From: a virus
DNA length: 35,006 nucleotides
Direction: 5' to 3' (one strand)
IMG/VR virus record: IMGVR_UViG_3300046683_000365
Coordinates: 1-35,006 of that record
This document shows positions 2,698 to 34,693 of the stretch, in pieces (the stretch's first letter is position 1; each line of letters opens with the position of its first letter). A model generated the notes under the pieces. The model was not told the DNA's origin. It saw only the letters and a program-made list of their open reading frames with translations, and ran no database searches. A program made the translations under genes and the position numbers.

Positions 2698-3285
2698 TCA
2701 AGCTGGAGCGATGACCACGACCCCGTTCGACGGTGGACCCTGCGTCGTCCCGATGGCGTTGGTTGCCGACACGGTACAAGAGATCGTCGTGCCGACATCG
2801 GCAAAGGCGATGGGATAGGTCGCGGTGGTGGGGCCGATGATCGGCGTCCCGTCACGCAGCCACTGATAGGAATAGCTCGACGGCTCGCCATCCCAAGTGC
2901 CGGTGTCGCAAATCAAGTTCGGGTCGTCTTGCTCGACCACCGGAGCCGTCGTATTGCTCGGCGGATCGGTGACCGGGGGCGGCTGCGGGCCGACCCCGAG
3001 ATCGGTCAGGCTCTGGGCGATCTCGCCGTCGCGCTCGACCAGTTGCGCTCTCAGCGCCGACATCGTCTCCGGTGCCACCGTGCCGATAGTCATAATGCGG
3101 ACATCCATCATCATGGTCTGTGATGGTGGCGTCGGGTTCGCCGGGTCGTAGGGCGGCGGTGCCGGTGGAGCAATAGTAAAGGCGGTCAGCGTCCCACCGT
3201 CATCGATGTGCGAAATCGCCATCTGAATCTGTTGCTGCTCTTGGTAAAGCGTATTGACCTGTGGAACGTCGTTATAGTTCGTCAC
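2698..3285 (-). CDS. YNDV-family fibre-associated protein with C-terminal Ig-like domain
   Basis: This encodes 195 residues. The first 100 are a paralogue of the product of 9435-9743: both start MT(N/D)YNDV, share a QxQxxIxxI helix, a Pro-rich IAPPxPPP linker, and an ending helix with L(V/L)xRDxxIxQxLxDLGV. This copy carries an extra C-terminal domain of about 80 residues with the Ig-like pattern Cys (ICDTGTW), Trp (YSYQWLRDGTPI) and Cys (TISCTVSATNAIG), typical of phage surface Ig-like modules that bind carbohydrates weakly. It follows the EAQ-type small protein by 12 bases. It may be a fibre accessory or assembly factor; function is inferred from its repeated position behind an S74 fibre. 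Confidence 0.65.
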   Translation of the reverse strand: MTNYNDVPQVNTLYQEQQQIQMAISHIDDGGTLTAFTIAPPAPPPYDPANPTPPSQTMMMDVRIMTIGTVAPETMSALRAQLVERDGEIAQSLTDLGVGPQPPPVTDPPSNTTAPVVEQDDPNLICDTGTWDGEPSSYSYQWLRDGTPIIGPTTATYPIAFADVGTTISCTVSATNAIGTTQGPPSNGVVVIAPA

Positions 3286-3297
3286 TGAACCCTCCTC

Positions 3298-3552
3298 TTA
3301 GTTCACCGGACGGTCGAATTCGCCGGGAGGATGATTGTCAAGGCCGTTGCCTTCGGTTCGACCAGCTTGTCCTCCGACTTGGCCCGCCGCCGTCTGAAGC
3401 TGCTCCATCATCAACGGGATCAAGGTCGCCGATATCCGATAAGGTAACGGCGTATCGTTGAGCGTCTGCATGATGAAGTTCCAATGCTGCGCCTCTAAGG
3501 TCAGGGTCAGCTTGGTGTCGGGATTTACCGGAGTCGGCGTTTGTGTGTTCAT
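3298..3552 (-). CDS. EAQxWN-family small protein
   Basis: This encodes 84 residues whose ATG overlaps the stop of the large fibre gene by 4 bases (ATGA). The core LTLEAQHWNFIMQTL followed by a PLPYR...LIPLMMEQLQ helix matches the paralogue at 9743-9955 (KLEAQEWNTIIEIL...APLIDKVGRQMQE). The N-terminus is Thr/Pro-rich and the C-terminus is Gly-rich and polar. Predicted mostly helical. Each paralogue sits directly after an S74-type fibre gene and directly before a YNDV-type gene, so a dedicated fibre partner or assembly helper is a reasonable inference. No database family is recognised. Confidence 0.65.
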   Translation of the reverse strand: MNTQTPTPVNPDTKLTLTLEAQHWNFIMQTLNDTPLPYRISATLIPLMMEQLQTAAGQVGGQAGRTEGNGLDNHPPGEFDRPVN

Positions 3553-6500
3553 GTCAAGCTCCTCTGTGACAAGTTACGAACAAGGTCTTCAAGTTCCTCG
3601 ACGCGAGCAGCAAGCTGCTGCATCGCGCGAAAAAGGTATGGAGTGAGTTGCTCATCAAGAATGCAGCGCATACCCTCACTTGCAAGGTCGCCAATAACCG
3701 GCACTATAGTAACCGCGTCAGGTATCAATTCTTCTAGCTCCTGCGCGACAAAACCACAAGAAACCGAAGAAACTTTACGGGGCATCAGCTTGCGCCCTTC
3801 TTCGGTCCATTCAAAGGCTCGTACAGATATCGCGCCGATTACCGCCAGGGCGTCGATCTCGCTGTCGCGGATGTTGAGCTTCAATCGCGCGTCGGACCAA
3901 GAAGCGTTGGGAGTGTAGTTGAAGCCCGAAGCACCTTGATCTGGACTAACCCCAAGATAGCCACCGCTGATTATAGCAAACGCCATCCAATCCCAACCGC
4001 TGCCAGCCCAGTTCCCGATGCGCGCACCTCCGTTCCCACCGCTTCGATACACCCCATAGGCGGTCATGTCGTTCCCCGCCCACGCATTCCCGTTGCATCG
4101 CATATCGCCGCTGCTACTGACGTAGCCACCGTGGCACTCGTTGGGTGTGTAGATACCGCCGTTTGGCGCATAAACCGACCAGCCGCCGCCGTTGGCTACC
4201 AGCCCGTTGCCGGCGGTGATGTTCCCAGCGTTCCAGATGTCACCCCGCGAATAGACGCCAGCAGCGTGCAAAGTTTGATCGAAGTACATGTAGCCGCTGT
4301 TGTTATACATCCGACAGCCGCCGACATAGAAGTCATTGCATTGGATGGCGCTGTCAGTGTGAACGGGGTTCGGCGTCCACCACCAGCCACCGTTATTCCA
4401 CCACTGAACGCCATGACAAAAAAAGCTGCCTTGAGTCGTTATGTTGGCACATTGCATGTCGCTGTCGGTATGGATCGGTGAACCCGTCCACCACCAGCCG
4501 CCGTTGTTGGTGAACAGCAAGCCGTTGACGAAAAGACCACTGCTACAATGAACATCCCAGGCGGTGAAGATACCACCAGTGCTGATGTTGCCGCCTCGAT
4601 CGATCGTCACTCGATCGCCATCGGCGCTCGACCATAGCCGAGCGACACTGCCGGTCGCGTACCACTGCCAATCGAACCCGCCGTTCCGGTCTTGAAAGAT
4701 CATCCCGGCACTGCCGCCGGTAGAGTACACTTCATTATTGCAGTAAATACGCCCAGAGCTTCGGATGTAGATGAGCCGCTCGTTGTTTCCAAGGTAGATG
4801 TTGTTGTCATTCCACAGGCTGACGATCCACCGAGGCGTTCCGCCCGTGTCCTTGCCGTAGAGCAGCCCGGTGTTGGCGAGATAGATCGTGGGAGTGACGA
4901 CGTTGTTGGCGTAAATCCACCCGGCATTGCTGATATCGCCGTTATTGCCAACGGTGAAGAGTGTGCCAGCGCCGTAGTTCCGCACCGCGAAGCCGCCCGA
5001 GCCGTTGCCGAGCTTGGCGATGATGTAGTTGCCATCGCCGTAGATGAACGGCCCACCCGAACCGTTGACGCTGGCAAAGTGAGTGTTCTGGAAGTAGAGG
5101 TAGTTGCCCGACATGAGGATCGAGCCGCCAGTGGCGTAGACGTTGCCGCGCGACCCGAAGTCACCGACGTTGAGATAGCCGCCCATATAGACTTGCGAGC
5201 CGGTCACGTAATTGATGTAGAGCGTGCCGTTCTGAACTTCGATGTGGCCCTGCGTGTCGTCGTAGATTCGCAGGTAGTGACCGTTGGCGTTGGCGACGTA
5301 AAACCCGTTCTGGTTGGAGTTGTAACAGACGATCTGACCGCCAGATGCCGAGAAGCTGCCGCCGACATCCATGCTGCCCAGAACATTGCAATAATTGTCG
5401 ACCTTAAGGTGATCCCAGACGTGGACCCAGCGACTGCCCCCTACCCCAGCCCCGTTGATGCAGAGCGCGCCGCCATCAAAGGTACGGTAGCCGATGTATC
5501 CAGCGTTCGCCTCGTCGCCGGAATTGATCTGAAAACGTAGCACCCGGCTGGTGAACGAGCCAAAAGTGGTACTACCGCCCCAATCGCCACCACCCTGTAT
5601 TCGTACACTCCCACCGATCAGAAGGTTGCCGAGGAAGTAGCCGCTGCCGCCGGTATCCACGGTGAACCTGTCGCCGCCGAAATAGAGGCGAGCAACGCTA
5701 CCGCTTCCGTACCACGTCCAGTAATTCGACGACCCCTGATCGAGGAAGGTAAGGTTCTGCTGTACTGTTAATGAAAAGGCACTGAGTGCTCCCGTCGTGC
5801 TGATGGTGCTGTTGAATGTGACCGCCGCTGGACTTTGAAAGGCGATCCCGCCGCTGCCGTTGTTGACGATCTGCGCCTGACCATTCGGGCCAGGCAGACG
5901 GATGATCCGAAAGTCGAAGTCAGTCCCAGCCTGGGAGTGAAAGTCGACGTAGGAGTTGCCTGTGCCGGTGCGCCCTTGACCAAGCTCCACGGCAGCATCA
6001 CCAGCCGTGCCGGAACCGGGAAAGAGGCTCCCAGCGGTGAACAAGCTGCCGCCGCTATTGAGGTTCGCAAGCTGGGTGCCGGGGTTGTTGTACCAGTAGA
6101 ACCCACCGTTTCCGCTACCGAGCTGCGCCGTCATATTGGTGAGGTCGGCAGAGACATAAGGCCCGCCAGACGAGACGCCGGAAAAGTACAGCGTCGGCCC
6201 GCCCATGAAGATGCTGGCCCCGGTGCGGAGCGACCCCGGCGTAGCGATGCTGCCGCCGCTATCAAAGGTCACCCGATCGCCGGATGCGTTATTCCACAGA
6301 CGGGCGATCCCGCCGCTCGCGTACCAGCCCCACATCGTGCCGGTGGTACGATCCTGAAACTGGAAAATGGCATTGCTGCCGGTCGTCGAAATTGGGCCAG
6401 CGTTTGAAAACGAGCCGGTCGAGCTGATATTGCCGACACTCGAAATACCGCCGCCACCCAGGATTTGGGTGCTGCCGACCGTCAGGTTGCCCGAGACGTT

Positions 6501-6863
6501 GACGTTGTCATACAGGTTGATCTTGCGCGAACCAGCCAGCGTTCCGGCACCGACAATGCTCAGCGCATCGCTGACATAGCCCCGATAATCGATCGCCCCG
6601 GCATCCTGCTGATCGCCGGGATTGGTCCCGAACCGCCAGCGATGCGCGCCAAAGCCCGCCCATGTGCTGTACCCAGGATCACCGACCGTTTTATTGTACA
6701 AAAATCCATACATCGGATACTGGGTGCCGCCGAACACCGGCTCGTACACGCCGCCGGATGGCATCGAAGCCATCCACTTGACACCGTCCCACATCCATGT
6801 CGACCAGCCGCTGGTGAACAGTTGACCTACGGTCAGGCCGGGTCCGCTCGGAAAATCGGCCAT
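3549..6863 (-). CDS. Long tail fibre/spike with C-terminal S74 intramolecular chaperone
   Basis: This encodes 1104 residues. Residues 1-35 (FPSGPGLTVGQLF, TWMWDGVKWMAS) match the N-terminus of the fibre at 7842-9419, suggesting a common baseplate-anchoring module. The body is a beta-rich stalk in which a WY-x(4)-(I/V)ARL(W/Y)-...-GDR(V/F)T(F/V/I)D unit recurs near residues 174, 378 and 726, and a NNGGWWWT-...-HTDS unit recurs near 786 and 826. The end, from about residue 985, is a Peptidase_S74 domain: WSDARLKLN with the Ser-Asp-x-Arg-x-Lys site, then GFVAQELEELIPDAV and a final coiled coil (ARVEELEDLVRNL). In that family the C-terminal part trimerises the fibre and then cleaves itself off. 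Likely a main receptor-binding fibre. Confidence 0.85.
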   Translation of the reverse strand: MADFPSGPGLTVGQLFTSGWSTWMWDGVKWMASMPSGGVYEPVFGGTQYPMYGFLYNKTVGDPGYSTWAGFGAHRWRFGTNPGDQQDAGAIDYRGYVSDALSIVGAGTLAGSRKINLYDNVNVSGNLTVGSTQILGGGGISSVGNISSTGSFSNAGPISTTGSNAIFQFQDRTTGTMWGWYASGGIARLWNNASGDRVTFDSGGSIATPGSLRTGASIFMGGPTLYFSGVSSGGPYVSADLTNMTAQLGSGNGGFYWYNNPGTQLANLNSGGSLFTAGSLFPGSGTAGDAAVELGQGRTGTGNSYVDFHSQAGTDFDFRIIRLPGPNGQAQIVNNGSGGIAFQSPAAVTFNSTISTTGALSAFSLTVQQNLTFLDQGSSNYWTWYGSGSVARLYFGGDRFTVDTGGSGYFLGNLLIGGSVRIQGGGDWGGSTTFGSFTSRVLRFQINSGDEANAGYIGYRTFDGGALCINGAGVGGSRWVHVWDHLKVDNYCNVLGSMDVGGSFSASGGQIVCYNSNQNGFYVANANGHYLRIYDDTQGHIEVQNGTLYINYVTGSQVYMGGYLNVGDFGSRGNVYATGGSILMSGNYLYFQNTHFASVNGSGGPFIYGDGNYIIAKLGNGSGGFAVRNYGAGTLFTVGNNGDISNAGWIYANNVVTPTIYLANTGLLYGKDTGGTPRWIVSLWNDNNIYLGNNERLIYIRSSGRIYCNNEVYSTGGSAGMIFQDRNGGFDWQWYATGSVARLWSSADGDRVTIDRGGNISTGGIFTAWDVHCSSGLFVNGLLFTNNGGWWWTGSPIHTDSDMQCANITTQGSFFCHGVQWWNNGGWWWTPNPVHTDSAIQCNDFYVGGCRMYNNSGYMYFDQTLHAAGVYSRGDIWNAGNITAGNGLVANGGGWSVYAPNGGIYTPNECHGGYVSSSGDMRCNGNAWAGNDMTAYGVYRSGGNGGARIGNWAGSGWDWMAFAIISGGYLGVSPDQGASGFNYTPNASWSDARLKLNIRDSEIDALAVIGAISVRAFEWTEEGRKLMPRKVSSVSCGFVAQELEELIPDAVTIVPVIGDLASEGMRCILDEQLTPYLFRAMQQLAARVEELEDLVRNLSQRSLT

Positions 6864-6879
6864 GCTTGGGTTTCGCCCC

Positions 6880-7842
6880 CTACGCCATCACGATGATCTG
6901 CGCCAACGCCGCTGCCGATAGTATGTCCGCGTAGTAGAAGGTCTGCGTACCTACGGTGCCGTTATAAATGGGAATGACAAATCGATTATTTCCATAGACC
7001 ACGGTATAAGCGTTTACACCTGCTGGCACGGGGAGGGGTCCGCCGTTAGTATAAGTAATCCCATCCGTAGTAACTAGAACATTACCGTTGGCACCAGCGT
7101 CACCCACCGCAACAAAGTACCCACCACCAAACGCTACCATCCGCCAATTGTTGGTAAATCCTACCGTGCGGGATGTCCAATTAACCCCGTCAGGTGACGT
7201 TACTACATACCCGCCAACATTGGAGACGGCGAGATAGATACCATTTCCATAAGCGACTCCCCACCAAAATGCTGAACCACCCAACGGGGTGGTTTGCATT
7301 GTCCAGTTAAGACCGTCAGGCGAGGTCATTATTTGACCTGTTACCGCTACGGCAACAAACTGACCGCCACCATAACAAATACTGCCCCACTGACCTTGAC
7401 TGAGGCTCCGTTCGGTCCAGACAATGCCATCAGGAGAAGTCGCGGTTACAGCGGCGGTGGTAACAGCGACATATAGACCTGCACCATAAGCAATTTGACG
7501 CCACGCATATGATGGGGTTGGTGGTGTTCGCGATGTCCAGGTAATGCCGTCAGGCGAAGTCATGGCGGCATTGGTGGCAGTAGTATTACTAAGGCCTATA
7601 AACAAACCATTACCAAAGCCGCTACCTCGCCAACTTACACCACCAACAGGCGCACTTCGACCTGTCCAGTTAAGACCGTCAGGCGAGGTCATCATTGCTG
7701 TTGGTGGATTAACATCGGCAAGAGTAACAAACATACCGTTGCCGTAAGTCGAGGTGCGCCACTGACCAACCGCAGGAATTAGAGGCGTTGCAGTAAACGC
7801 CGTCATGCTTGAGGGAGTGATCAACCCATCATCAAGCGGCAT
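6880..7842 (-). CDS. SPDG-repeat beta-propeller protein, putative adhesin
   Basis: This encodes 320 residues from ATG at 7842 (TGATG overlap with the previous stop; a GTG at 7845 is the alternative; AGAGG lies five bases upstream of the ATG). The protein is built from repeats of about 41-46 residues with consensus TSPDGxxWTxRT-...-WxxxxYGxGxFVAV. SPDG or TTDG turns appear near residues 51, 94, 135, 173, 215 and 261, with partial units at both ends. This is the pattern of BNR/sialidase-like beta-propellers with six or seven blades. No catalytic sialidase residues (Arg triad) are evident. Between two anchored fibres, a carbohydrate-binding tip or fibre-attached adhesin is likely; the lack of an anchor module suggests it binds another tail protein. 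Confidence 0.7.
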   Translation of the reverse strand: MPLDDGLITPSSMTAFTATPLIPAVGQWRTSTYGNGMFVTLADVNPPTAMMTSPDGLNWTGRSAPVGGVSWRGSGFGNGLFIGLSNTTATNAAMTSPDGITWTSRTPPTPSYAWRQIAYGAGLYVAVTTAAVTATSPDGIVWTERSLSQGQWGSICYGGGQFVAVAVTGQIMTSPDGLNWTMQTTPLGGSAFWWGVAYGNGIYLAVSNVGGYVVTSPDGVNWTSRTVGFTNNWRMVAFGGGYFVAVGDAGANGNVLVTTDGITYTNGGPLPVPAGVNAYTVVYGNNRFVIPIYNGTVGTQTFYYADILSAAALAQIIVMA

Positions 7843-9419
7843 CACGTCCTCTGCGCCAGGATGGTGATGCCGATGTCGGCGAGAGTGGCGTCCTGCGTCG
7901 AAGGGGCGACCAGTTGCAAGACATCGCCCGCGACAACCGAACCGCCAACCCCCGACAGCGTGCAGGACGTGGACGATCCCGTGGTGATCACAACCGAGCC
8001 GATCGCCGTCGTCGTCCCGCCGGATATCTTGTTCAGGGTAAAGGTCGCTGATGCTGTCGCCAGCGTGCTGTCGTAGACCACTGAACCCGTCAGATTGGCC
8101 GGGATCGTCATCGGCATGGCGACCGTCAGATTAAACCTGGCACTGGCGGCGGGCTTGCCAACGACGGTGAAAGCCACCGGAAGGTTCTGAATAGACGCCT
8201 TAACAAAAGCGGTCGTCGCGACGTTTGTGCCGTTATCGGCAGCGGCAGGCGATGCAGCGAGCATCAGGCCCGACATCGTGAAGGTCGCCGCCGCACCGAT
8301 AGCCCCATTTGACACCACCCCGATGACGAATTGTCCGGTGCGGCTAGCGTCAGTCGTATTGGTCAAATTCGCCTGAAGCAGCACCGCCGTGCGTGTCTGG
8401 ACAGTAGTCATCGCCGCCAAATCGAGAGCGGCAATGTTAGCCGTAGCGACAGCAGCGGTGTTTTCGATGCGTATTCTGGCGGCACCGCCAGCGTTCTGAA
8501 CAAGCAACGGGTTTGCGGCTACCGCACCGTTGTTGATCGTCAGCGCGCCGTTAAGTGAGCCACCAGACAACAAAAGGTAAGACCCAAGACTAGTCGTTAC
8601 CGCATCAACATACTGTTTGGTCGCGGCATCCAGAGCATTGGAGGGATCGCCCGACAGCCGCATGACTTGACCCGAAGCCATCTTAAACAGGCCGGGTGAA
8701 ACTTGGTAGCTCAGTCCAAGCGAAACCGCCGCATCCTTGGTTCCGATCGGCGCCGTATAGAAGCCGAAGACACCACCGAACACGCTGTACGCCACCGCAG
8801 CGGTGTTGCCAAGGTAGCGCCAGACACCGCCTGCGTCGAAGTACGCACCGAAGGTGATGCTCGACTGCTCGGCGATCCCCACCATGCTGCGCCCGATAAA
8901 GATGTTGCCGACATCGGGGCTGGCGGGGACTACAGCCGTCCCGATCGCCAAGTTACCGGGTACGAAAATCGATTGATCGGCATTCCACCGCATCGCTTCG
9001 ACACCAGCGGTAGACATGCTGACTTGATTGGTGCCGCTACCGGACAAGCCCTTATTCGTCGCACCGACAAAAGTATGACTTGGCGCAGAAACGGTTCCAA
9101 GAGGCGCTATAATGGTGACGGCGCAGTTAAGAGAAACGGTGGTGATCGCAACGCGATTGAGTCCACCAGCGGCGAAATTGATTTGGGTAGCGGCGGCTGA
9201 AGTCCAAATGCCGGTTCCTGGCGTCCCGAAATTCAACGTCGTTGCGGCAACCGTGCCGCCGGGGATCGTCAACGGCCCGGTCATGGAGCCGCCCGCGATC
9301 GGTACAAACGGCCCCGCACCGCCCGAAGCGACCCACTTCGTACTATCCCACATCCATGACGTTCCAGCAGCCTGGAACGTCTGGCCGTTGGTACGAGGCG
9401 GGTCGGGGAAATTCAACAT
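7842..9419 (-). CDS. Tail fibre with shared anchor module
   Basis: This encodes 525 residues. The N-terminus ([25 protein letters not shown]) matches that of the 1104-residue fibre. The middle has classic tail-fibre repeat motifs: [11 protein letters not shown] near residue 261 and ATTAFVKAS near residue 398, and Ala/Thr/Gly-rich beta segments ([19 protein letters not shown]). The C-terminal 120 residues ([43 protein letters not shown]) form a compact beta domain seen at the ends of many phage fibres; there is no S74 domain. It follows the YNDV gene by 15 bases. Probably a side fibre or a trimeric stalk carrying a small receptor-binding tip. Confidence 0.75.
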
Positions 9420-9434
9420 AGCTGAATCTCGACC

Positions 9435-9743
9435 TTAGCTCCGCGAAGGCGTGTTTGTGACGCCGAGATCGATCAGTTCCTGGGTTATCGCAGCATCCCG
9501 ATCCAGCAACGCCGTGTGCAAAGCAGTAACCAATTCCGGCTGGTTGGGATTATTTAATTTAGCCGGTATCGGCATACCTGTTGGCGGCGGTACGGGATTT
9601 TCTGGATCGGGAGGAGGAACCGGCGGCGCGATCATCACCGAATCCGCGTGACCGCCGTTCGATATGTAATCGATTGCCGTCTGAACCTGTTTTTGTTCCG
9701 CGATCAACGCATTGGCCTGACCAACGTCGTTATAGTCTGTCAT
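9435..9743 (-). CDS. YNDV-family fibre-associated protein (short form)
   Basis: This encodes 102 residues whose ATG overlaps the previous stop by one base (TGATG). It starts MTDYNDVGQANALIAEQKQ, continues through a Pro-rich linker (IAPPVPPPDPENP) and ends with a helix LLDRDAAITQELIDLGV. It aligns with the first 100 residues of the product of 2698-3285 but lacks the Ig-like C-terminus. Predicted as two helices joined by an extended linker, which would suit a small adaptor. It is the third gene of a fibre/EAQ/YNDV cassette present twice in this window. Function unknown. Confidence 0.65.
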   Translation of the reverse strand: MTDYNDVGQANALIAEQKQVQTAIDYISNGGHADSVMIAPPVPPPDPENPVPPPTGMPIPAKLNNPNQPELVTALHTALLDRDAAITQELIDLGVTNTPSRS

Positions 9744-9955
9744 CAGCCGACCTCCTTCAGACCTCGGCCTTCAACCCTCTCCTGCATCTGGCGACCGACT
9801 TTGTCGATCAGCGGAGCGGTCTGAACATAGGAGAAGCCAACCGAGCGGCAGAGAATCTCAATGATCGTGTTCCACTCCTGCGCCTCTAGCTTAATATCCA
9901 GAATGGTCATCGGATCGATTGGCGGCACGGGCCTGCTCCTGTTTAGTGATTGCAT
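9743..9955 (-). CDS. EAQxWN-family small protein
   Basis: This encodes 70 residues from ATG at 9955, chosen because AGGAG lies seven bases upstream and the Pro-rich N-terminus (SRPVPPIDP) then aligns with that of its paralogue at 3298-3552. ATG at 9910 is the alternative and has no clear ribosome binding site. The chosen start overlaps the end of the preceding fibre gene by 65 bases. The core KLEAQEWNTIIEIL and the following APLIDKVGRQMQERV helix are shared with the paralogue. Probably helical; likely a partner of the upstream S74 fibre, by position only. Confidence 0.6.
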   Translation of the reverse strand: MQSLNRSRPVPPIDPMTILDIKLEAQEWNTIIEILCRSVGFSYVQTAPLIDKVGRQMQERVEGRGLKEVG

Positions 9956-10907
9956 CGTCCAACTCCTGTATGACACCGACAAAAAGAGCCATCATCGTGT
10001 TCGGATCAGAGTTCTGCACTTGCATCGCTTTTCGCATCTTAAATTCAGTTGGCTCCAGCCGGGTCTTTGGCGCACCGTCAGGGAAATCCTCATGCAGCCG
10101 CTGGGCGATAAAGCCGACCGGGATCGTCGGCGCGTCATCATCGGCGGGCTTGAGCCAACCGATGTGCTTGTGTTTCTTCCACCGATATTGATAAAGACGG
10201 ATTTTTCGTAGCGCCGCGCGGCAATCAAAATCGGACAAGTCGATGTCGGTCTTCAGCCGCTCGTCGCAAGCGTGAGCAAGACCCCAGTCAATGACACTAC
10301 CGTTATTAAGCCTCGCGAAGCACTGAGTGCCGTCCCAGGTGAATTTAAAACCGACAGCGGTTGTTATGTTGTTGAAAACTATCCCCGTAGCAGATTGCCC
10401 TAAGATAAATTTGTCAGTCGTGTAAAGGTTGCCCCATATCACAAATTGCGCCATCCCTTGCGAGAAACCAAACAGCGGGTTGTTGTCGCCTGTATAAGTG
10501 TAATATAGTAAATCGTTATTGCCAGGATTATAAAGCCAGCGCCAGCCATCCGTCGAAAACCACAACTCGTTTGAATGAAAGCTCATCGCCCAGTTGCCGC
10601 CACTGTACCAATCGAACTGTGTATCGGCGGTAAAAACCAAATTACTCTGATAAACACTCACACCATAACTACTATTCCAAAACGTGATGTGCTTTGAACT
10701 ATCGGTTGGGCCAGAGGGCGCTGCCGAATTCCAGCCGATACCGCCCTGCATCGCGCCGCCTGTCAGGGGCAGTACCGGAACCCAAGCACCCGCAGTCGTT
10801 CGCCCATTGATACCGGAAGCGGGTTCTGGGGTTACCGCCGCCGCCCCGGTCAGGCCAGTAGCGCCTTTAGGTCCGACAGGAACAACGATCGTCCCGGCAT
10901 TAGGCAT
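9891..10907 (-). CDS. Short tail fibre 3 with Cys-variant S74 domain
   Basis: This encodes 338 residues; the start overlaps the previous stop by 8 bases. The N-terminus has a short collagen-like stub (VGPKGATGLTGAA), then a region shared with its two tandem paralogues (GAWVPVLPLTGG, SSKHITFWNSSYG), an aromatic beta body, and from about residue 213 an S74-type intramolecular chaperone: ACDERLKTDI, LRKIRLYQYRWKK, IPVGFIAQRLHEDFP, and a terminal helix (NTMMALFVGVIQELDDAI). The family site is Ser-Asp-x-Arg-x-Lys; here the Ser is Cys. It is the last of three tandem paralogues and is followed by the EAQ and YNDV small genes. Confidence 0.8.
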   Translation of the reverse strand: MPNAGTIVVPVGPKGATGLTGAAAVTPEPASGINGRTTAGAWVPVLPLTGGAMQGGIGWNSAAPSGPTDSSKHITFWNSSYGVSVYQSNLVFTADTQFDWYSGGNWAMSFHSNELWFSTDGWRWLYNPGNNDLLYYTYTGDNNPLFGFSQGMAQFVIWGNLYTTDKFILGQSATGIVFNNITTAVGFKFTWDGTQCFARLNNGSVIDWGLAHACDERLKTDIDLSDFDCRAALRKIRLYQYRWKKHKHIGWLKPADDDAPTIPVGFIAQRLHEDFPDGAPKTRLEPTEFKMRKAMQVQNSDPNTMMALFVGVIQELDDAITKQEQARAANRSDDHSGY

Positions 10908-11919
10908 CGACCATCTCCGAGACTTCAGTGTCTAGCTGTTGCAAAGCTCCGCAAAGCAAGGCCATCATCGTGTTGACATCAACATTCCACATTGCCAGCG
11001 CACCCTTGCATTTTGCTGTCGGAAAGGTGGCGACGGATTCGGGAAAGTCTTCGTGCAGCCGCTGAGCGATAAAGCCGATCGGTATCGTCGGATCTGTGTC
11101 ACGCGCGAGCTTGGGGCGGATCGGATCGATGAAGTTACGCCAGCGAAACTGGTAAACCCGAATCTTACGAAGCGCCGCGAGACAGTCGAATTGCGAGGGA
11201 GCAATGTCCTGCTTTAGTCGCTCATCGCATCCGTTCACAAACGGGATTTGCACCGCGTTGTCGACGCGCCCGTAAACCCAAGTGCCGTCCCAGTTCCAAT
11301 TATAGCCGTGACCATCAACATTCGGAAAATTCATACCACGACCGTTTACAACGAGGTTTCTCGTAGTGCCGCTTGATGGCAGCGAGCCATAACCCCAGAT
11401 GGTGAACCCGCCAACACCATAATACCAACCCATCCTGGCGTTGTTGCTGGGGTCGTACCAGATCATGTTGCCGGTCGCGTTGTCGAAATTCCAACGGTAG
11501 CCACTGGCTGAGAACCATAGCTCGCGGGTCCGAATTTCAGAGGAATATCCCCCACCCGTATAAAAGGCGTGTCGCTGACCGGACACCATATTCAGCGTGC
11601 CGCCGGTAATCGCAAACCCGTAACTGCCCCCATACAAATCGAGATGATGCGAGAGATCGGTTGCGCTACCTGAAACGACGTTGCCAAAATTGATGCCACC
11701 CGTCATTGAAGTAAAGCTGTTACCAGCCGGAACACCCGTCAAAGGAAGGACGGTAGCCCAAGCTGCGTTCCGCCTTCCGCTCGCTGTTCCCGATACCGGG
11801 TTGGGCATTGCCGTTCCGTTCGCGCCTGTAGCGCCGGTCAATCCCACTGGCCCCGTTTGAACGACAGGTGTCGCTGAAGCTACATTTAGCTCGATGATTG
11901 GCGGGACAGCTTCGGTCAT
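10900..11919 (-). CDS. Short tail fibre 2 with Cys-variant S74 domain
   Basis: This encodes 339 residues; ATGA overlap with the previous gene. It has the same architecture as its neighbours: a collagen-like stub (GPVGLTGATGANG), a conserved WATVLPLTGV segment, a beta body rich in Gly/Tyr/Trp (SGYRWNFDNATGNMIWYD), and from about residue 229 the S74-type end GCDERLKQDI, LRKIRVYQFRWRN, IPIGFIAQRLHEDFPE, then a closing helix. Cys replaces the catalytic Ser. The body differs clearly from the other two copies while the ends are conserved, as expected if the stem and chaperone are kept and the receptor-binding part diverges. Confidence 0.8.
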   Translation of the reverse strand: MTEAVPPIIELNVASATPVVQTGPVGLTGATGANGTAMPNPVSGTASGRRNAAWATVLPLTGVPAGNSFTSMTGGINFGNVVSGSATDLSHHLDLYGGSYGFAITGGTLNMVSGQRHAFYTGGGYSSEIRTRELWFSASGYRWNFDNATGNMIWYDPSNNARMGWYYGVGGFTIWGYGSLPSSGTTRNLVVNGRGMNFPNVDGHGYNWNWDGTWVYGRVDNAVQIPFVNGCDERLKQDIAPSQFDCLAALRKIRVYQFRWRNFIDPIRPKLARDTDPTIPIGFIAQRLHEDFPESVATFPTAKCKGALAMWNVDVNTMMALLCGALQQLDTEVSEMVDA

Positions 11920-12869
11920 CGTAGAGCCTGCATTCTGTCATCAAGCTGCTGAACGGCACGGCAAAGGGTTGCCAGCATGACGTTACGATTAGCGGTTCCT
12001 AACCGGGTCGCGCCGCGCGCTTTGCCTCCAGGCGCATGAGCGCCGTGCGGATAGTCTTCAGCCAATCGTTGCGCGACAAAACCGATCGGTATGTGACGAC
12101 CCTTGAGCCAGCTAGAGCTAAACCGATCCTTCCAGCGATACTGATAAAGGCGAACATTGCGGAGGGCGGCGAGCGCATCGAACTCTGACGGCACGATGTC
12201 TTGCTTCATCCGTTCGTCGCATGCTTGTGCGATGGCATACTCAACAGCTTGATCGACTCGCGCGTAAATCCATGTGCCGTCCCACCGTTGGCTAAAGCCG
12301 TTAGTATAAGTAGTGAGATAAGGTTGAACGCCAACGCCGTTACATGTTAATTCTCCAGTGCAGTAAATCCCGCTCTGGCCGTACAATGTGCAGTTACTGA
12401 TACTAGTATCATATATACAAACTCCAGTCGGATGTTGTATCTGCATTGTCGTGGAGTTGGTCATGGCAAAACCGTATGAAGCATTAGACCAATTAAAAGA
12501 AATACCCGAAATAGCGAACGTTCGCGGTGCTCCGGTCAAGTTAAAGTAGACACTATTTGGCCCTACATAATTTAGCGTGCTATTGGTTATGCTAAAACCG
12601 CAGTTGGTTTGAAACGAGATATGTTTTGTAAGATCAGTTGCACTAGCTACGACAACTGTACCAAAATTAATCCCGCTGCTGACCGTTGCTCCAATCAACG
12701 GCACCACGGGAACCCAGCTTCCCGGCTGACGACCGTAGGTCTGCCCATCGCTCGGAGAGTTATCGGCCCAATTGGCACCCGAAAGCCCAGTATTTCCGAC
12801 CGGGCCGGGTAACCCTGTCGGAATAGCAGGAACGCCAGCGGCGACAAGAGGAGACGCTACCTCGGTCAT
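11916..12869 (-). CDS. Short tail fibre 1 with Cys-variant S74 domain
   Basis: This encodes 317 residues; ATGA overlap with the preceding small gene. It has a collagen-like stub (GLPGPVGNTGLSG), a SWVPVVPLIGA segment, the module ATDLTKHISFQTNCGFSI also seen in fibre 2 and, more weakly, fibre 3, and a beta body with repeated N-S-T strands (ITNSTLNYVG, AMTNSTTMQIQ). The end from about residue 216 is S74-type: ACDERMKQDI, LRNVRLYQYRWKD, IPIGFVAQRLAEDYP. The active Ser position is Cys. The first of three tandem fibre paralogues, lying just downstream of the collagen-like fibre; they may form alternative or hetero-assembled short fibres. Confidence 0.8.
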   Translation of the reverse strand: MTEVASPLVAAGVPAIPTGLPGPVGNTGLSGANWADNSPSDGQTYGRQPGSWVPVVPLIGATVSSGINFGTVVVASATDLTKHISFQTNCGFSITNSTLNYVGPNSVYFNLTGAPRTFAISGISFNWSNASYGFAMTNSTTMQIQHPTGVCIYDTSISNCTLYGQSGIYCTGELTCNGVGVQPYLTTYTNGFSQRWDGTWIYARVDQAVEYAIAQACDERMKQDIVPSEFDALAALRNVRLYQYRWKDRFSSSWLKGRHIPIGFVAQRLAEDYPHGAHAPGGKARGATRLGTANRNVMLATLCRAVQQLDDRMQALR

Positions 12870-13090
12870 ACGATGGGCGCTGGAGCAAAGCCGCCAGGAT
12901 ACATTGCGGCGACTTGATTAAGGCCCGACAACAATACAGCACAACTTGCGCGTAGCTGCCGCACCTGTCCCATCATTTCTTCGTCAATTTCCTCTCTGGC
13001 TGTCAAACCAACCGCTATTTGCGCGAACTTGAAACATAGATCGGAAAATTGCTGAAGGTCTTTTGTCGGGAAAGGGGTATCGGCCATCAT
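12866..13090 (-). CDS. Small helical protein between fibre genes
   Basis: This encodes 74 residues from ATG at 13090, which overlaps the stop of the collagen-like fibre by 4 bases; a second ATG follows immediately. An upstream in-frame start would overlap the fibre gene by about 100 bases and is not needed. The protein looks alpha-helical ([19 protein letters not shown], then [16 protein letters not shown]) with a Pro/Gly tail. Like the EAQ genes it directly follows a large fibre gene, and it could be a fibre assembly helper, but no sequence match to them is clear. Function unknown. Confidence 0.6.
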
Positions 13091-15558
13091 GCAGTCCTTT
13101 GTAGGGTCAAGGTATTTGAGGCAATACTGTTGATGACATAGAACTGACCGCCGATATAAAGCGGTAGTCCGGCTACCATCCACGTTACATTATCGACAGG
13201 GACGGCAACCGTCGCGCCAACGCCGGGAGCGGTAAACGTCGCTGTCGTAAAAGCCAGACCCGCCATCGGACCCGTTGGCCCCGGTACGGTCGAAGCTGCC
13301 CCGGTCGCTCCCGTCGCGCCGGTCGGCCCAATCGGTCCCTGCGGCCCCGGTACGGTCGAAGCGGCCCCCGTCGCGCCGGTCGGACCCGTTGGCCCCGTCG
13401 CACCTGTTGGCCCTGTCGGTCCCGGTACGGTCGAAGCGGCCCCCGTCGCGCCGGTCGCTCCTTGCGGCCCCACCGGACCTACCGGACCCGCCTGATTGGA
13501 TGCCGGAACCCACTGTGCCGATGACGAGTCGTCAAACCAAAGATAAAGCTGCGCCCCAACACTGTCCCACCAGCCCGTGCCTGGGGTCGGTGAAGCGGGT
13601 GGGGTATCGCCGATCGTAATCTTGCTGCCACCACCCGCCGCTACAGCGGTGTCGACATAGAGCTTTGTTGCGGCACTCAGATCAACAAGCGGCGGGCCTG
13701 CAAGGGTCAGCGCCCCTGTCATCGCACCGCCGGTCGTCAGTAACCCGGTTGCGCCCGAGACATCCGCAGCGGTCAGTGTGACCGCCCCCGTGCGAGTGTT
13801 AAAGCTGGCAACCCCCGCCGTACTGATGATAACCGCCGCGTCGACGTATTGCTTCGTCGCAGCGTGCAACGCTGCTGTCGGGTCAGATGACAAGGTCAAA
13901 AAATCGCTCATCACGCCGCCCGACAACGCAAGGTACGGCGTGATGACATCAATCGTTGATGGCGTCGTCGTCGCGTTGAGCGCGAGGCCGGGACCGACTT
14001 GCCAATCTGGGCCTTGTGGCCCTATCGGCCCCACCGGACCCGGCACGGTGCTATCAGCCCCGACCGGGCCTGCCGGACCCACTGGGCCTGCTGGACCGGG
14101 TGGACCCATCGGGCCATCTGCACCTACCGAACCTGGCGCTCCAGGGTCACCAGGGTCACCGGCTGGGCCTATGGGGCCAATAGGGCCGGTCGGCCCAGCA
14201 GCTCCATCGGCCCCAGCCGGTCCAGCGGGTCCGGTTGGCCCCGCAGGGCCGGGAGTGCTGACAACCGTAGCCACCGCGTCATCAACATATTGCCGGGTCG
14301 CACTATGCAGCGGTGCGGTGGGCGGGCCTGACAGGGTGAGTAACCCGGTCATCACCCCGCCCGCCAGCGCAAGCCCACCAAAATTCGCCAATGCTGCGGC
14401 TGCGGTTGTCGCATTGCTGCCGCCATTAGGGATAGAAACCGGGACTGAAAGAGCGATCGTCACGTCGCCCGATACGCCGCCGCCGATTAAGCCGGTGCCA
14501 GCCGTGACTCCGGTGATTGTTCCGCTACCGGGACTGCCGCTGCCACTGATCGGAACCCCGTTGACATAGAAGCCGCCGGTCACATTGACGGTCCCGGCAC
14601 CCATGTCACCGCCGGTCGGTATGCCACCCGCAGCCGTGGTCAGCATCAGACCCCGGTTAACCGACATCCGCAGGACGCTGATCGTCGTTCCCGGCGTGTT
14701 GGTAATGAACTCGATCGCCGCACCAGCGGCGCTGTCCGTCCAATTTTCAGTGGCGCGGATTTGCATGCCCGCCACGGCTTGGCTGTAGCCGGTCGCCAAC
14801 CGCCCATTGGCCGCAAACAGACCGACAAGATCACCGCTTTGGACCGCCGTTGGGGCCGACGCATTGCCCCGCGAGAAGCGGCACAAGTAGAACGGATTGC
14901 CGTTCGCCATATTGGCGTAGGAGTCGAGCATATGCCCGACACCTTCCGGCCCATCGTTCGATGCCAGAAACAGAACCGGGTAGCCAACCGGGGCATGCGG
15001 TCTGCCGGGATTGATCGCAAGCGCCCCCGTCAGGGTGCCGCCCGCCAACGGCAAGCCGCCGAGATTCGATAGGGCGGCGACCGCCGTCGTCGCGTTGGTG
15101 CCGCCATTGCCGATCGAAACCGGCACCGACAAGCTGATAAAGACCTGACCTTCTGTCCCACCCCCGCTTAGGCCGACGCCGGGAATAATTGCCGTAATCG
15201 TCCCGCCGCCGCCACCGTTTCCTGTTCCCGGCGGTCCCTGCGGACCCGGCTGATTTACAACAGCAACCCACTGTGCGCTGTTACCGTCGTCAAAATAAAT
15301 ATAGAGTTGAGCGCCAAAACTATCGAACCATAAAATACCGGGATATGGATTAGCGGGCGGCTGAGTGCCGATAATTGCGCGACCAATATAAGACCTACCC
15401 GGTATAGGCTCGAATATCCACTTACCGCCAACTTGAGTACCGTCGCCTACGACGATATCGCCATTGGAAACATTGATGATAACTTCGCCTTGGAGCGGCG
15501 TATAGCTCGCAAGGCTGGTATCCGTCCCTCGGATTTGCTGAAGCTGTTTGTGCGACAT
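13087..15558 (-). CDS. Collagen-like tail fibre with Mtd-type N-terminus
   Basis: This encodes 823 residues. The N-terminus ([20 protein letters not shown], then [10 protein letters not shown]) matches the small beta domain found at the start of many phage fibres, including major tropism determinant (Mtd) proteins. A GAQLY(I/L)(Y/W)FDDxxSAQWV module occurs twice (near residues 70-105 and 650-685). Two Gly-X-Y collagen-like stretches lie at about residues 433-519 and 689-765, the second with three GAASTVPG units. Three (T)K/RxYVDxAV fibre repeats occur near 417, 566 and 626. These features indicate a long trimeric, flexible fibre. The C-terminal 55 residues form a small beta domain. It is the first adhesion gene after the tail tip genes. 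Confidence 0.8.
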
Positions 15559-31736: not shown

Positions 31737-34693
31737 CAGGTGGTACTCCCAGCTAAACGTATCGACGGATTCAGCCGCCCCGTTAGAGCGATGCTCGGCG
31801 TTGCATGACCGCTTAGACTGATCCCGCCGTCACGTTGACCCGTCAGGACAGTGGCTGGCGGCAAATGCCCGCTTAAGCTAATCGGCGCGGATAGATATCC
31901 GCGCAGCTCAATCTCTTTGGCGACCGAACCAGGCTCAACCGAGAAGCCGACCGCGCTGCCTACCCCTGCGGCGAACGCCGCCGAAAACGCCTCGATGTCG
32001 GCAAACCCAAGCGTGATCCCGACCGCCAGCGAAACGCCGTTGCCGACCGCATCTGACGCCGCAACCGCCTGCGCGGTAGACGTACCCGCTGCCAGCCCGA
32101 CGACGACGAACTGAGCCTTGGCCGCGCCAGCCCCGGCAGCATTGCCGGTCGATAGAGCATCCCGCCTACCGGCACCGATGGCGGCACCGACACCGGGAGC
32201 AACCCCGGCAAGCTGGAAGTCAGCCAGACTTGCCCCGATCGCGCCCCCGGCCCCGGCAGCACTGCCTCGGGCAAAACCGATATCGGCGAGACTGATCGCG
32301 CGACCGACGCCCGCAGCATTGCCGACGCCGATACTGTCGTCGCGTCCGGTGGCGGCGGCGGTTCCGAGGCCAGCGGCATTGCCTGTAACAATCCCGTCGC
32401 CTCGACCAACCGCCGCCGCACCGCCGACAGCGTGAGCAGCTCCTGTTGCAATGGCGTCTGCCCGAACAGTCGCCAAAGCCGCTCCAACGCCAGCCGCGGA
32501 TCCGACAGCCGATGCGCCGATGCCAGCAGAACTCGCCCCTGAAGCCGTCCCTAGACCGGCACCGGCACCGACGCTTCTGACATCGGCGCGTCCGGCAGCG
32601 GTAGCAGTTCCAGTACCGGCGCTCGCCCCCGCGCCTCGATAATCGTCCTTCCCGACCGCGACCGCTGCGCCAGCACCGCTGGCCGCGCCGGTTGTCGGGC
32701 TGGAGATTGATCCAACAGCCGCGCCGGTCCCAACGCCCAGACCGGCAGCGGTGCCAGCACTCCTGACGTCCGTCGTCGCGCTGGCGAACGCGGCCCCAAC
32801 ACCGGCAACCGCGCCCGCAGCCGACACCCCCAAGCCAGAGGCGGATGCACCAAGCCCAGCACCTAAGCCCGCACCGGCACCAACGGTCCTGGCATCGCTC
32901 GTACCGACCGCCGTTGCCGTACCTACCCCGGCGCTGACCCCGACCAGTGTGTCGTCGGCCCGATCGGGCGCGTTCGCGGCCCCAATACCAGCGGCTGCAC
33001 CGACGCCCAGACTGTCGGCCCGCAGGATGCCGCTGGCGATCCCGTGGCCTGCGGCAGCTCCGGTGACCGGACTATCGAGATTGGAACTCGACGCTCCTGA
33101 CGCGGTCGCCAGCCCAGCCGCAATACCGGCACTTCGCGTATCACTCTTGCCGCCTGCGGTCGCCGCACCTAAACCGGCACCGGCACCAGCGGCTGGCGTG
33201 TCCAAGCTAGCGGACGACGAGCCGAGAACCGTGCTTGTACCGGCGGCTACGCCCGCACTTCTCGCATCGCTGCGCGCGGCAGCGGTCGCCGCACCTAAAC
33301 CGGCAGCGGCACCAGCGGCTGGCGTGTCCAGGCTGGCAGACGACGAGCCGAGAACCGTACTTGTACCGGCGGCTACGCCCGCACTTCGCGTATCACTCTT
33401 GCCGCCTGCGGTCGCCACGCCAGCCCCGGCAGCGGCGCCGACCGTGATGCTGTCGCTGCGCCCGGTCGCCGTGGCCGCGCCAGCCCCGGCAACGGTGCCG
33501 ACCGTGATGCTGTCGCTGCGCCCGGTCGCCGTGGCCGCGCCAACCCCGGCAGCGGTGCCGACCGTGATGAGGGGGGCCGTGCCTGTCGCCGACAGCGTGT
33601 CGGCAGTCTCGGTGACCGCTAGAGTGCCAGTTATACCAGTACCAGCGATCTGATACGCCGGTTGCACCGCACCGGGATGCGTATAGTTGGTAACACTGGT
33701 TGTCTGCCCCGCCCTGTGCTGCGGGAAGGCGGGGGGCCAAGCAACAGCTACCAGCCCTGTAATCGAAGGCTGCACCGCACCCGGTGCGTCAAAGTTTATT
33801 ACACCTAAACTTTGCCCTGCGCCGTGTTGCGGGAAGGCTGGGGGCCACGGGGCGACCGCTATCGGAGCCGCTGGACCTTCCGCCGTTGCAACCAGCGTGT
33901 CTGGTACTTCGCTGCGCGCCAGCGTACCGCCGACGATCGGCCCGCCAGACGCTGCCAACGTATCGGGAGCCTCAGTCTTTACCAGCGTGCCAACATAGGG
34001 AGTTCTGCCGGTCGAGACGATCGTGTCGGAAATCTCAGTAACAGCAAGCGTGCCGGTCACGGCGGCAACAAAATCAGCGGTGGTGATCGAGGTGGTGCCG
34101 ATACGGAAGAAAACGTTGTCGTTGTTACTCGATCCGGCAGTGGTTTCCTGCCACTCTACCTGAAAAAACAGATATGCGTTGTTGAGGACTATCTGTCCTG
34201 GCGAGGCGGTAATCGAACTATTTGTGTCGGCGGTAGTTGAGAGCGTGACGGTCGCGCCCGCCGTATTGGAGATAAGCTGAGTGGCAACGGCTCCGGTAAG
34301 GTTAGTTGATCGGTACATCTTCATGTTGACGTGGCCGATACAACCTGCCGTCCCGGCCCGCATGTTGAAATTGAAGGTCCAGGCCGTGGCAGCGAAGGTG
34401 CCGGTTAGCGGACCAACGACAAAACAATCACCAGCCGCACCGCCACCAGTTCCCGTTCCCAGAGTGGGACCGCTTGTCGAAGCGTTGTAACTGGCGGAAA
34501 GAGCGGGATCGGTGCTAGTCGCCGTCGCGCCAAGATGGCCGCGATAATACGGTGTGGTGATCGCAGTTTTGGCTGGTGCCCAACCAAAGGCCGAATTAGC
34601 TGCGGTCGGCGCTGAACCGTTAAGCTGAGTGTTGCCCCAGAAGTATGGGGTAACCGCCGTCGTACCCAGCAGATAGATGGTCTGAACGGCCAT
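31736..34693 (-). CDS. Large Ala/Gly repeat structural protein (head-fibre-like)
   Basis: This encodes 985 residues; TGATG overlap with the upstream gene. Residues 1-215 form a beta-rich domain (YFWGNTQLNGSAPTAANSAF, VNMKMYRSTNLTG, LFFQVEWQETTAGSSN). A linker follows with four GTL(A/V)xxExxDTLxA(S/T) units and two WPPAFPQHxAGQ units. About residues 375-900 consist of short repeats of roughly 20 residues, AAGxGxAxAxGRxDxxxxG, almost all small residues. The last 60 residues contain five (I/V)xLxGxL-type strands of 10-12 residues. The repeat body is low complexity and probably an extended filament or beta stack. It lies among head/neck genes, away from the tail fibres, so a head fibre or decoration protein is inferred. 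Confidence 0.65.
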   Translation of the reverse strand: MAVQTIYLLGTTAVTPYFWGNTQLNGSAPTAANSAFGWAPAKTAITTPYYRGHLGATATSTDPALSASYNASTSGPTLGTGTGGGAAGDCFVVGPLTGTFAATAWTFNFNMRAGTAGCIGHVNMKMYRSTNLTGAVATQLISNTAGATVTLSTTADTNSSITASPGQIVLNNAYLFFQVEWQETTAGSSNNDNVFFRIGTTSITTADFVAAVTGTLAVTEISDTIVSTGRTPYVGTLVKTEAPDTLAASGGPIVGGTLARSEVPDTLVATAEGPAAPIAVAPWPPAFPQHGAGQSLGVINFDAPGAVQPSITGLVAVAWPPAFPQHRAGQTTSVTNYTHPGAVQPAYQIAGTGITGTLAVTETADTLSATGTAPLITVGTAAGVGAATATGRSDSITVGTVAGAGAATATGRSDSITVGAAAGAGVATAGGKSDTRSAGVAAGTSTVLGSSSASLDTPAAGAAAGLGAATAAARSDARSAGVAAGTSTVLGSSSASLDTPAAGAGAGLGAATAGGKSDTRSAGIAAGLATASGASSSNLDSPVTGAAAGHGIASGILRADSLGVGAAAGIGAANAPDRADDTLVGVSAGVGTATAVGTSDARTVGAGAGLGAGLGASASGLGVSAAGAVAGVGAAFASATTDVRSAGTAAGLGVGTGAAVGSISSPTTGAASGAGAAVAVGKDDYRGAGASAGTGTATAAGRADVRSVGAGAGLGTASGASSAGIGASAVGSAAGVGAALATVRADAIATGAAHAVGGAAAVGRGDGIVTGNAAGLGTAAATGRDDSIGVGNAAGVGRAISLADIGFARGSAAGAGGAIGASLADFQLAGVAPGVGAAIGAGRRDALSTGNAAGAGAAKAQFVVVGLAAGTSTAQAVAASDAVGNGVSLAVGITLGFADIEAFSAAFAAGVGSAVGFSVEPGSVAKEIELRGYLSAPISLSGHLPPATVLTGQRDGGISLSGHATPSIALTGRLNPSIRLAGSTT
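33191..33416 (-). repeat. 126-bp direct repeat inside the Ala/Gly repeat gene
   Basis: The motif beginning GGCTGGCGTGTCC at 33191 recurs at 33317, 126 bp (42 codons) later, with only scattered differences over about 100 bp. It encodes VAAGTSTVLGSSSASLDTPA followed by the short Ala/Gly unit. The near-identity at DNA level points to a recent duplication within the gene. Confidence 0.85.
33421..33570 (-). repeat. 60-bp tandem repeat inside the Ala/Gly repeat gene
   Basis: Bases 33421-33480 and 33481-33540 are identical except at two positions, and the next 29 bases continue the pattern. Each unit encodes 20 residues of the form AAGxGAATATGRSDSITVGT. The period keeps the frame, so copy number can change without breaking the gene. 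Confidence 0.95.

Follow-up and report, generated by a model that had tools for sequence, protein, structure and literature searches.

Receptor-binding fibres set the host range of phages, and many of them are hard to produce for lack of known partner proteins. Fibres that carry a Peptidase_S74 (S74) domain are thought to fold using this built-in chaperone alone, and the endosialidase-type S74 fibres of K1F, phi29 and T5 are not known to have dedicated small partner genes. Fibre accessory proteins as such are known. T4 encodes two small fibre chaperones, the general gp57A and the fibre-specific gp38, whose gene lies right behind that of the fibre (PMC7289586, PMC3004832). In Pam3 gp25 an alpha-helical domain is joined to a variable beta-sandwich (PMC9608196). 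The Tfa proteins of Mu and lambda can stay on the fibre tip, and T2/S16 gp38 adhesins and Hoc-type Ig decoration proteins display variable virion-exposed domains on a conserved binding part. Our search of the literature returned reports of fibre-adjacent chaperones (PMC7289586, PMC9608196) and none of dedicated partners of S74 fibres.

The stretch of DNA analysed here (the window, 35,006 nucleotides) is an IMG/VR fragment from an uncultured virus of bacteria, in which S74 fibre genes are followed by small genes of two kinds, EAQ and YNDV. Like those of K1F, phi29 and T5, the window fibres carry a genuine S74 domain. That YNDV goes with individual fibres and EAQ is single in a phage, as we propose below, recalls T4 gp38 and gp57A by analogy only (PMC7289586). 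Neither family matches a Pfam chaperone model, and the S74 fibres concerned have an intramolecular chaperone built in. V22 gp27 (DUF4376) and Pam3 gp25 resemble YNDV and EAQ in that their genes adjoin the fibre (PMC7289586, PMC9608196), but there is no sequence match; Pam3 gp24 is a TNF-like rather than an S74 fibre, and the domain order of Pam3 gp25 is reversed relative to YNDV, where the helical core comes first and the variable domain last. Tfa is alike in gene position, but Pfam gives no match for YNDV or EAQ, and YNDV minus its extra domain is about half as large as Tfa. The likeness to T2/S16 gp38 and Hoc lies in variable domains, which in YNDV would be exposed on the virion, borne by a conserved part; in YNDV that part is a new family. 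What is new, as far as sequence comparison goes, is two protein families and S74 as the partner fibre type.

The fibre module and its two small protein families

The minus strand of the window bears siphovirus-type tail genes, running from the tape measure (TMP_2) through downstream tail proteins and the fibres to an endolysin-like gene. The segment from 13 kb to 2.7 kb contains four S74 fibres, one further fibre gene, two EAQ and two YNDV genes, with another fibre gene ahead of them, all on this strand. The gene ahead (13087-15558) encodes an 823-aa fibre with a weak N-terminal match to Mtd_N (major tropism determinant) and collagen repeats after it. Then come S74 fibres of 317 aa (11916-12869, PF13884 E 8.8e-10) and 339 aa (10900-11919, E 2.1e-10), followed by cassette A: a 338-aa S74 fibre (9891-10907, E 2.1e-10), EAQ copy A (9743 to ~9930-9955, 55-70 aa), whose start inside the end of the S74 fibre gene is uncertain, and YNDV copy A (9435-9743, 102 aa), which has no Ig domain. 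Behind it are a 525-aa fibre (7842-9419) and a 321-aa protein (6880-7845) with a weak DUF6242 match below cut-off. Cassette B consists of a 1104-aa fibre with a C-terminal S74 intramolecular chaperone (3549-6863, E 1.4e-9), EAQ copy B (3298-3552, 84 aa), whose start overlaps the fibre stop (ATGA), and YNDV copy B (2698-3285, 195 aa), in which a YNDV domain of ~97 aa precedes a C-terminal Ig-like domain. A conserved 213-aa neighbour (2044-2685), with a weak holin-family match at its N-terminus and 93-100% identity in relatives, and the endolysin/tail-lysozyme-like gene (1436-2032, TIGR02594-like) complete the series. Pfam places Peptidase_S74 (PF13884) in both cassette fibres and the two S74 fibres upstream; in the window and its relatives all 24 C-terminal fibre domains examined match it, and the majority of these have a YNDV gene directly downstream.

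The original prediction, that an S74 fibre, an EAQ and a YNDV gene occur twice here and that the small genes are paralogous across copies, is borne out: the two YNDV proteins share 47% identity over 98 aa (E 2.7e-21) and the two EAQ proteins ~43%. We also note an N-terminal signature, FPxxPxxGQ...WxWDGxKW, common to fibres with differing C-terminal heads, two in the window (7842-9419 and 3549-6863) and two elsewhere (L086, L096), which is probably a common tail-anchoring part.

Neither small protein belongs to a described family, again as predicted, judging by family libraries, PDB sequences and GenBank phages. Pfam, PHROGs and NCBIfam returned nothing usable; phrog_11042 (E 0.024) and phrog_30651 (E 0.36) were dropped as weak and inconsistent between family members, and PDB sequence profile matches (cytochrome, phosphodiesterase) were judged to be chance. 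The Pfam models for tail fibre assembly and chaperone proteins (Tfa, gp38, gp57A, DUF4376) gave no match up to E 10. With tblastn in 50,697 GenBank phage records, EAQ and short YNDV matched at chance level only, and matches of Ig-bearing YNDV copies were confined almost entirely to the Ig part. None of the small genes behind the fibres of Sansa, EBPR siphovirus 2, RHEph08 and Azospirillum phage Cd is related to either family. EAQ was not found in plasmids, and neither EAQ nor YNDV turned up in two scans covering 84,980 genomes of bacteria and archaea, so that no host can be named.

The YNDV core is predicted to fold as helix-strand-strand-helix (whole-protein model, mean pLDDT 86). The C-terminal tails that follow it are of four kinds: short, Ig-like (in the window, its close relatives G001 and G002, and G003, L043, L065 and L068), collagen-like with GATGATG repeats (L041, L043, L097) and proline-rich (G003, L041, L098, L113), the majority of YNDV proteins having no extra folded domain. 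For copy B the predicted Ig-like domain holds up: residues 102-183 give weak sub-threshold Ig_2/Ig_3 matches in Pfam (Ig_2 E 1.1e-4, under the curated cut-off) and match Ig-bearing PHROGs, and residues 110-193 are modelled as an Ig-like beta sandwich with Z up to 8.6 to Ig/Fn3 chains. When the whole YNDV model was compared with PDB and BFVD structures, its Ig part dominated the results and no match to the core emerged. The same type of Ig domain is present in annotated phage polysaccharidases and pectin-lyase-fold proteins. Another small protein of G002 (L025 8032-8622) has the module as well, near a portal-like gene and away from fibres.

EAQ is modelled, with modest confidence (pLDDT 70), as a short extended segment that leads into a helical hairpin; its core, L-E-A-Q-x-W-N plus a later Q, is nearly invariant, and its model had no match better than E 3 among PDB and BFVD structures. 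Between the window and its relatives dN/dS is 0.17-0.19 for EAQ, 0.10-0.14 for the YNDV core and 0.34 for the Ig part, which evolves at roughly three times the rate of the core. These low values indicate that YNDV and EAQ are real genes under constraint, with the Ig part freer. Some loci without YNDV (L087 7231-7737, L092 561-1067, L094 7198-7704) have a small gene of ~168 aa behind EAQ, with a different N-terminus and a C-terminal end that appears Ig-like.

Linkage to fibres in uncultured phages

Iterated profile searches of IMG/VR recovered 35 distinct YNDV and 50 distinct EAQ proteins. Note that loci were picked by EAQ or YNDV, so that an S74 neighbour is an independent observation while frequencies reckoned per S74 fibre come out too high. 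Of the 34 distinct YNDV cases that could be assessed, 33 belong to a block led by an S74 fibre. In 23 YNDV comes directly behind the S74 domain with a gap of 2-79 nt, where by chance ~1.6% of positions in these loci would fall within 100 nt behind an S74 end; three more follow another YNDV that trails S74, seven follow an EAQ that trails S74, one follows a non-S74 fibre (L064) and one is at a contig edge. EAQ is broader in its associations: 37 of 50 are in S74-led blocks and most of the other 13 behind non-S74 fibres, the exceptions including L111, where EAQ follows a baseplate spike with no intervening fibre, and L121, where it follows a short unknown protein. Many S74-YNDV junctions are 4-nt ATGA stop/start overlaps, and in many phages the EAQ start overlaps the fibre stop codon. 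In independent contigs, then, the two genes are mostly found behind fibres rather than mostly away from them.

Distances among S74 domains correlate with those among YNDV proteins (Mantel r 0.33, reached in 1 of 10,000 permutations), a pattern that shared ancestry could yield. Neither EAQ nor YNDV is close behind 18 of 60 distinct S74 domains, and S74 fibres in general thus need neither. As to copy number, EAQ occurs exactly once in each of the 35 other contigs searched whole and YNDV zero to three times, these being lower bounds because contigs are fragments; the window is the only contig seen with two EAQ genes. The first reading is partly upheld. Its core, a dedicated fibre accessory system of no described family, is supported by the novelty of the families, fibre linkage, overlaps and purifying selection. 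EAQ is single-copy per contig and not specific to S74 fibres, which means that EAQ and YNDV do not act as one fixed pair.

At three loci (L038 2894-4009, L040 374-1489, L042 582-1742) family 2 glycosyltransferase-type genes, a type confirmed by Pfam for L038 only, come after an S74-YNDV unit and before the fibre or EAQ gene that follows; such genes possibly serve fibre glycosylation.

What YNDV and EAQ may do

Linkage, stop/start overlap and constraint make it very likely that both genes have a fibre-related role, and they would be accessory genes of the fibre module. There are a number of ways in which they might fill it. The one we narrowly favour is that YNDV is a fibre-specific partner of S74-type fibres, translated together with each fibre and ending in an exchangeable tail, and that each phage has a single EAQ, a small helical factor common to all its fibres, which would probably be needed for fibre folding or for attachment of the fibre to the tail. 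The alpha-beta-beta-alpha core of YNDV would most likely bind a conserved part of the trimeric fibre, either the S74/coiled-coil end or the base of the shaft, leaving the C-terminus to bear an exchangeable domain at the surface, either Ig-like, collagen-like or proline-rich, or no domain at all. Between the window and G001, YNDV is 81% identical and the adjacent fibre 41% overall; in that fibre (3549-6863) the shaft has diverged from relatives while both ends are better conserved. YNDV is consequently likelier to meet a conserved fibre end than the receptor-binding shaft. What the sequences show is the gene linkage, the stop/start overlap, the purifying selection, the varied domains, the block peculiar to the window and the tree; that YNDV and EAQ may bind the fibre, be present in the virion and act in chaperoning or attachment is inferred.

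A second scenario, possible but not one we would bet on, is that both proteins are transient assembly chaperones, YNDV fibre-specific like T4 gp38 and EAQ general like gp57A, with neither in the virion. That YNDV goes with individual S74 fibres while EAQ is single-copy matches this division of labour, and the V22 gp27 and Pam3 gp25 chaperones, too, adjoin their fibre genes (PMC7289586, PMC9608196). Against it, S74 is itself an intramolecular chaperone, sequence matches to Pfam chaperone families are lacking, and tails of the Ig-like and collagen-like kinds typify parts of the virion that are exposed. The resemblance of the tails to exposed virion domains would favour YNDV remaining on the fibre, but its position and small size fit a transient chaperone equally well.

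Alternatively, EAQ might be a structural protein of the baseplate or tail tip that merely adjoins fibres. Baseplate genes often come next, EAQ lies between a baseplate spike and a gp25-like gene in L111, and there is one EAQ per contig. We consider this unlikely, given that the fibre is the constant neighbour in other tail contexts and that many phages have EAQ overlapping the stop codon of the fibre gene. More doubtful still is a role for YNDV as a distal adhesin or decoration protein, in the manner of T2/S16 gp38 or Hoc, with a variable tail for binding to the host or to what surrounds it. Exchangeable tails, the roughly threefold faster evolution of the Ig part relative to the core and the occurrence of the Ig module in depolymerase-type proteins would all suit such a role; however, most YNDV proteins lack the extra folded domain, and YNDV, far better conserved than its fibre, does not track the receptor-binding shaft.

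Keeping to our favoured reading of YNDV as a fibre partner and EAQ as a general factor, one might tentatively go further and suppose that S74 fibres in a large group of uncultured phages have a second layer, made of co-translated, fibre-bound YNDV with interchangeable surface domains and one general EAQ per phage, the whole set being mobile as a plug-in host-recognition cassette. In any case the two undescribed fibre-linked families provide named candidates for the missing fibre-partner role in uncultured phages and make it possible to test directly if S74 fibres depend on help besides their own chaperone.

The 6.4-kb block and the origin of cassette A

Why should the window have two sets? Its two close relatives, G001 and G002, with tail proteins mostly 75-100% identical to those of the window, have a single cassette, made up of S74 fibre, EAQ and Ig-bearing YNDV, behind which come the 213-aa gene and the endolysin-like one. 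By blastn, a 6.4-kb block of the window (8172-14550) is missing from both. The DNA match of G001, the nearest relative, which also lacks the 321-aa gene, runs to 8171 and restarts at 14551, with 6380 bp intervening in the window and ~118 bp in G001. The block contains three S74 fibres, EAQ and the short YNDV. Both relatives have one fibre gene that corresponds to residues 1-335 of the window gene at 13087-15558, the N-terminus of the resident fibre, joined to the C-terminal head (residues 381-524) of the gene at 7842-9419. This uninterrupted gene spans both window halves and hence places the block inside a fibre gene. Insertion in the window lineage, as a candidate event, would be simpler than two separate losses.

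In the YNDV tree copy B groups with G001 and G002 (100/99), and copy A falls in a different clade (80/85); the EAQ alignment offers too few columns for placing its copy A. In AU tests a sister relationship of the window's YNDV copies is rejected (p=0.001), and a clade uniting them with the copies of G001 and G002 is marginally rejected (p=0.04). The first reading, a tandem duplication within the phage with the Ig domain added later, is very improbable despite the shared gene order of EAQ then YNDV, since the AU test rejects sister copies, copy A belongs to another clade, the block is absent from both nearest relatives, and both already have Ig. The Ig form at the same locus in G001 and G002 makes it the resident state there rather than a derived gain of the second copy; on the YNDV tree the trait changes three times in all, each change a gain or a loss. 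Together these patterns point to acquisition of the second EAQ/YNDV set and three S74 fibres from another phage, by what would have been recombination into the fibre gene.

Low G+C was dropped as proof of foreign origin: the whole block, at 57.3%, is ordinary for the window, and only the S74 trio is low (53.3% versus 59.6% outside the block). Elsewhere in the window, 1.1 kb of a repeat-rich 985-aa gene (33566-34672) is 96.5% identical in DNA to G003 (L027 18845-19951), which suggests recent exchange of this segment with an otherwise distant contractile-tail-type phage contig.
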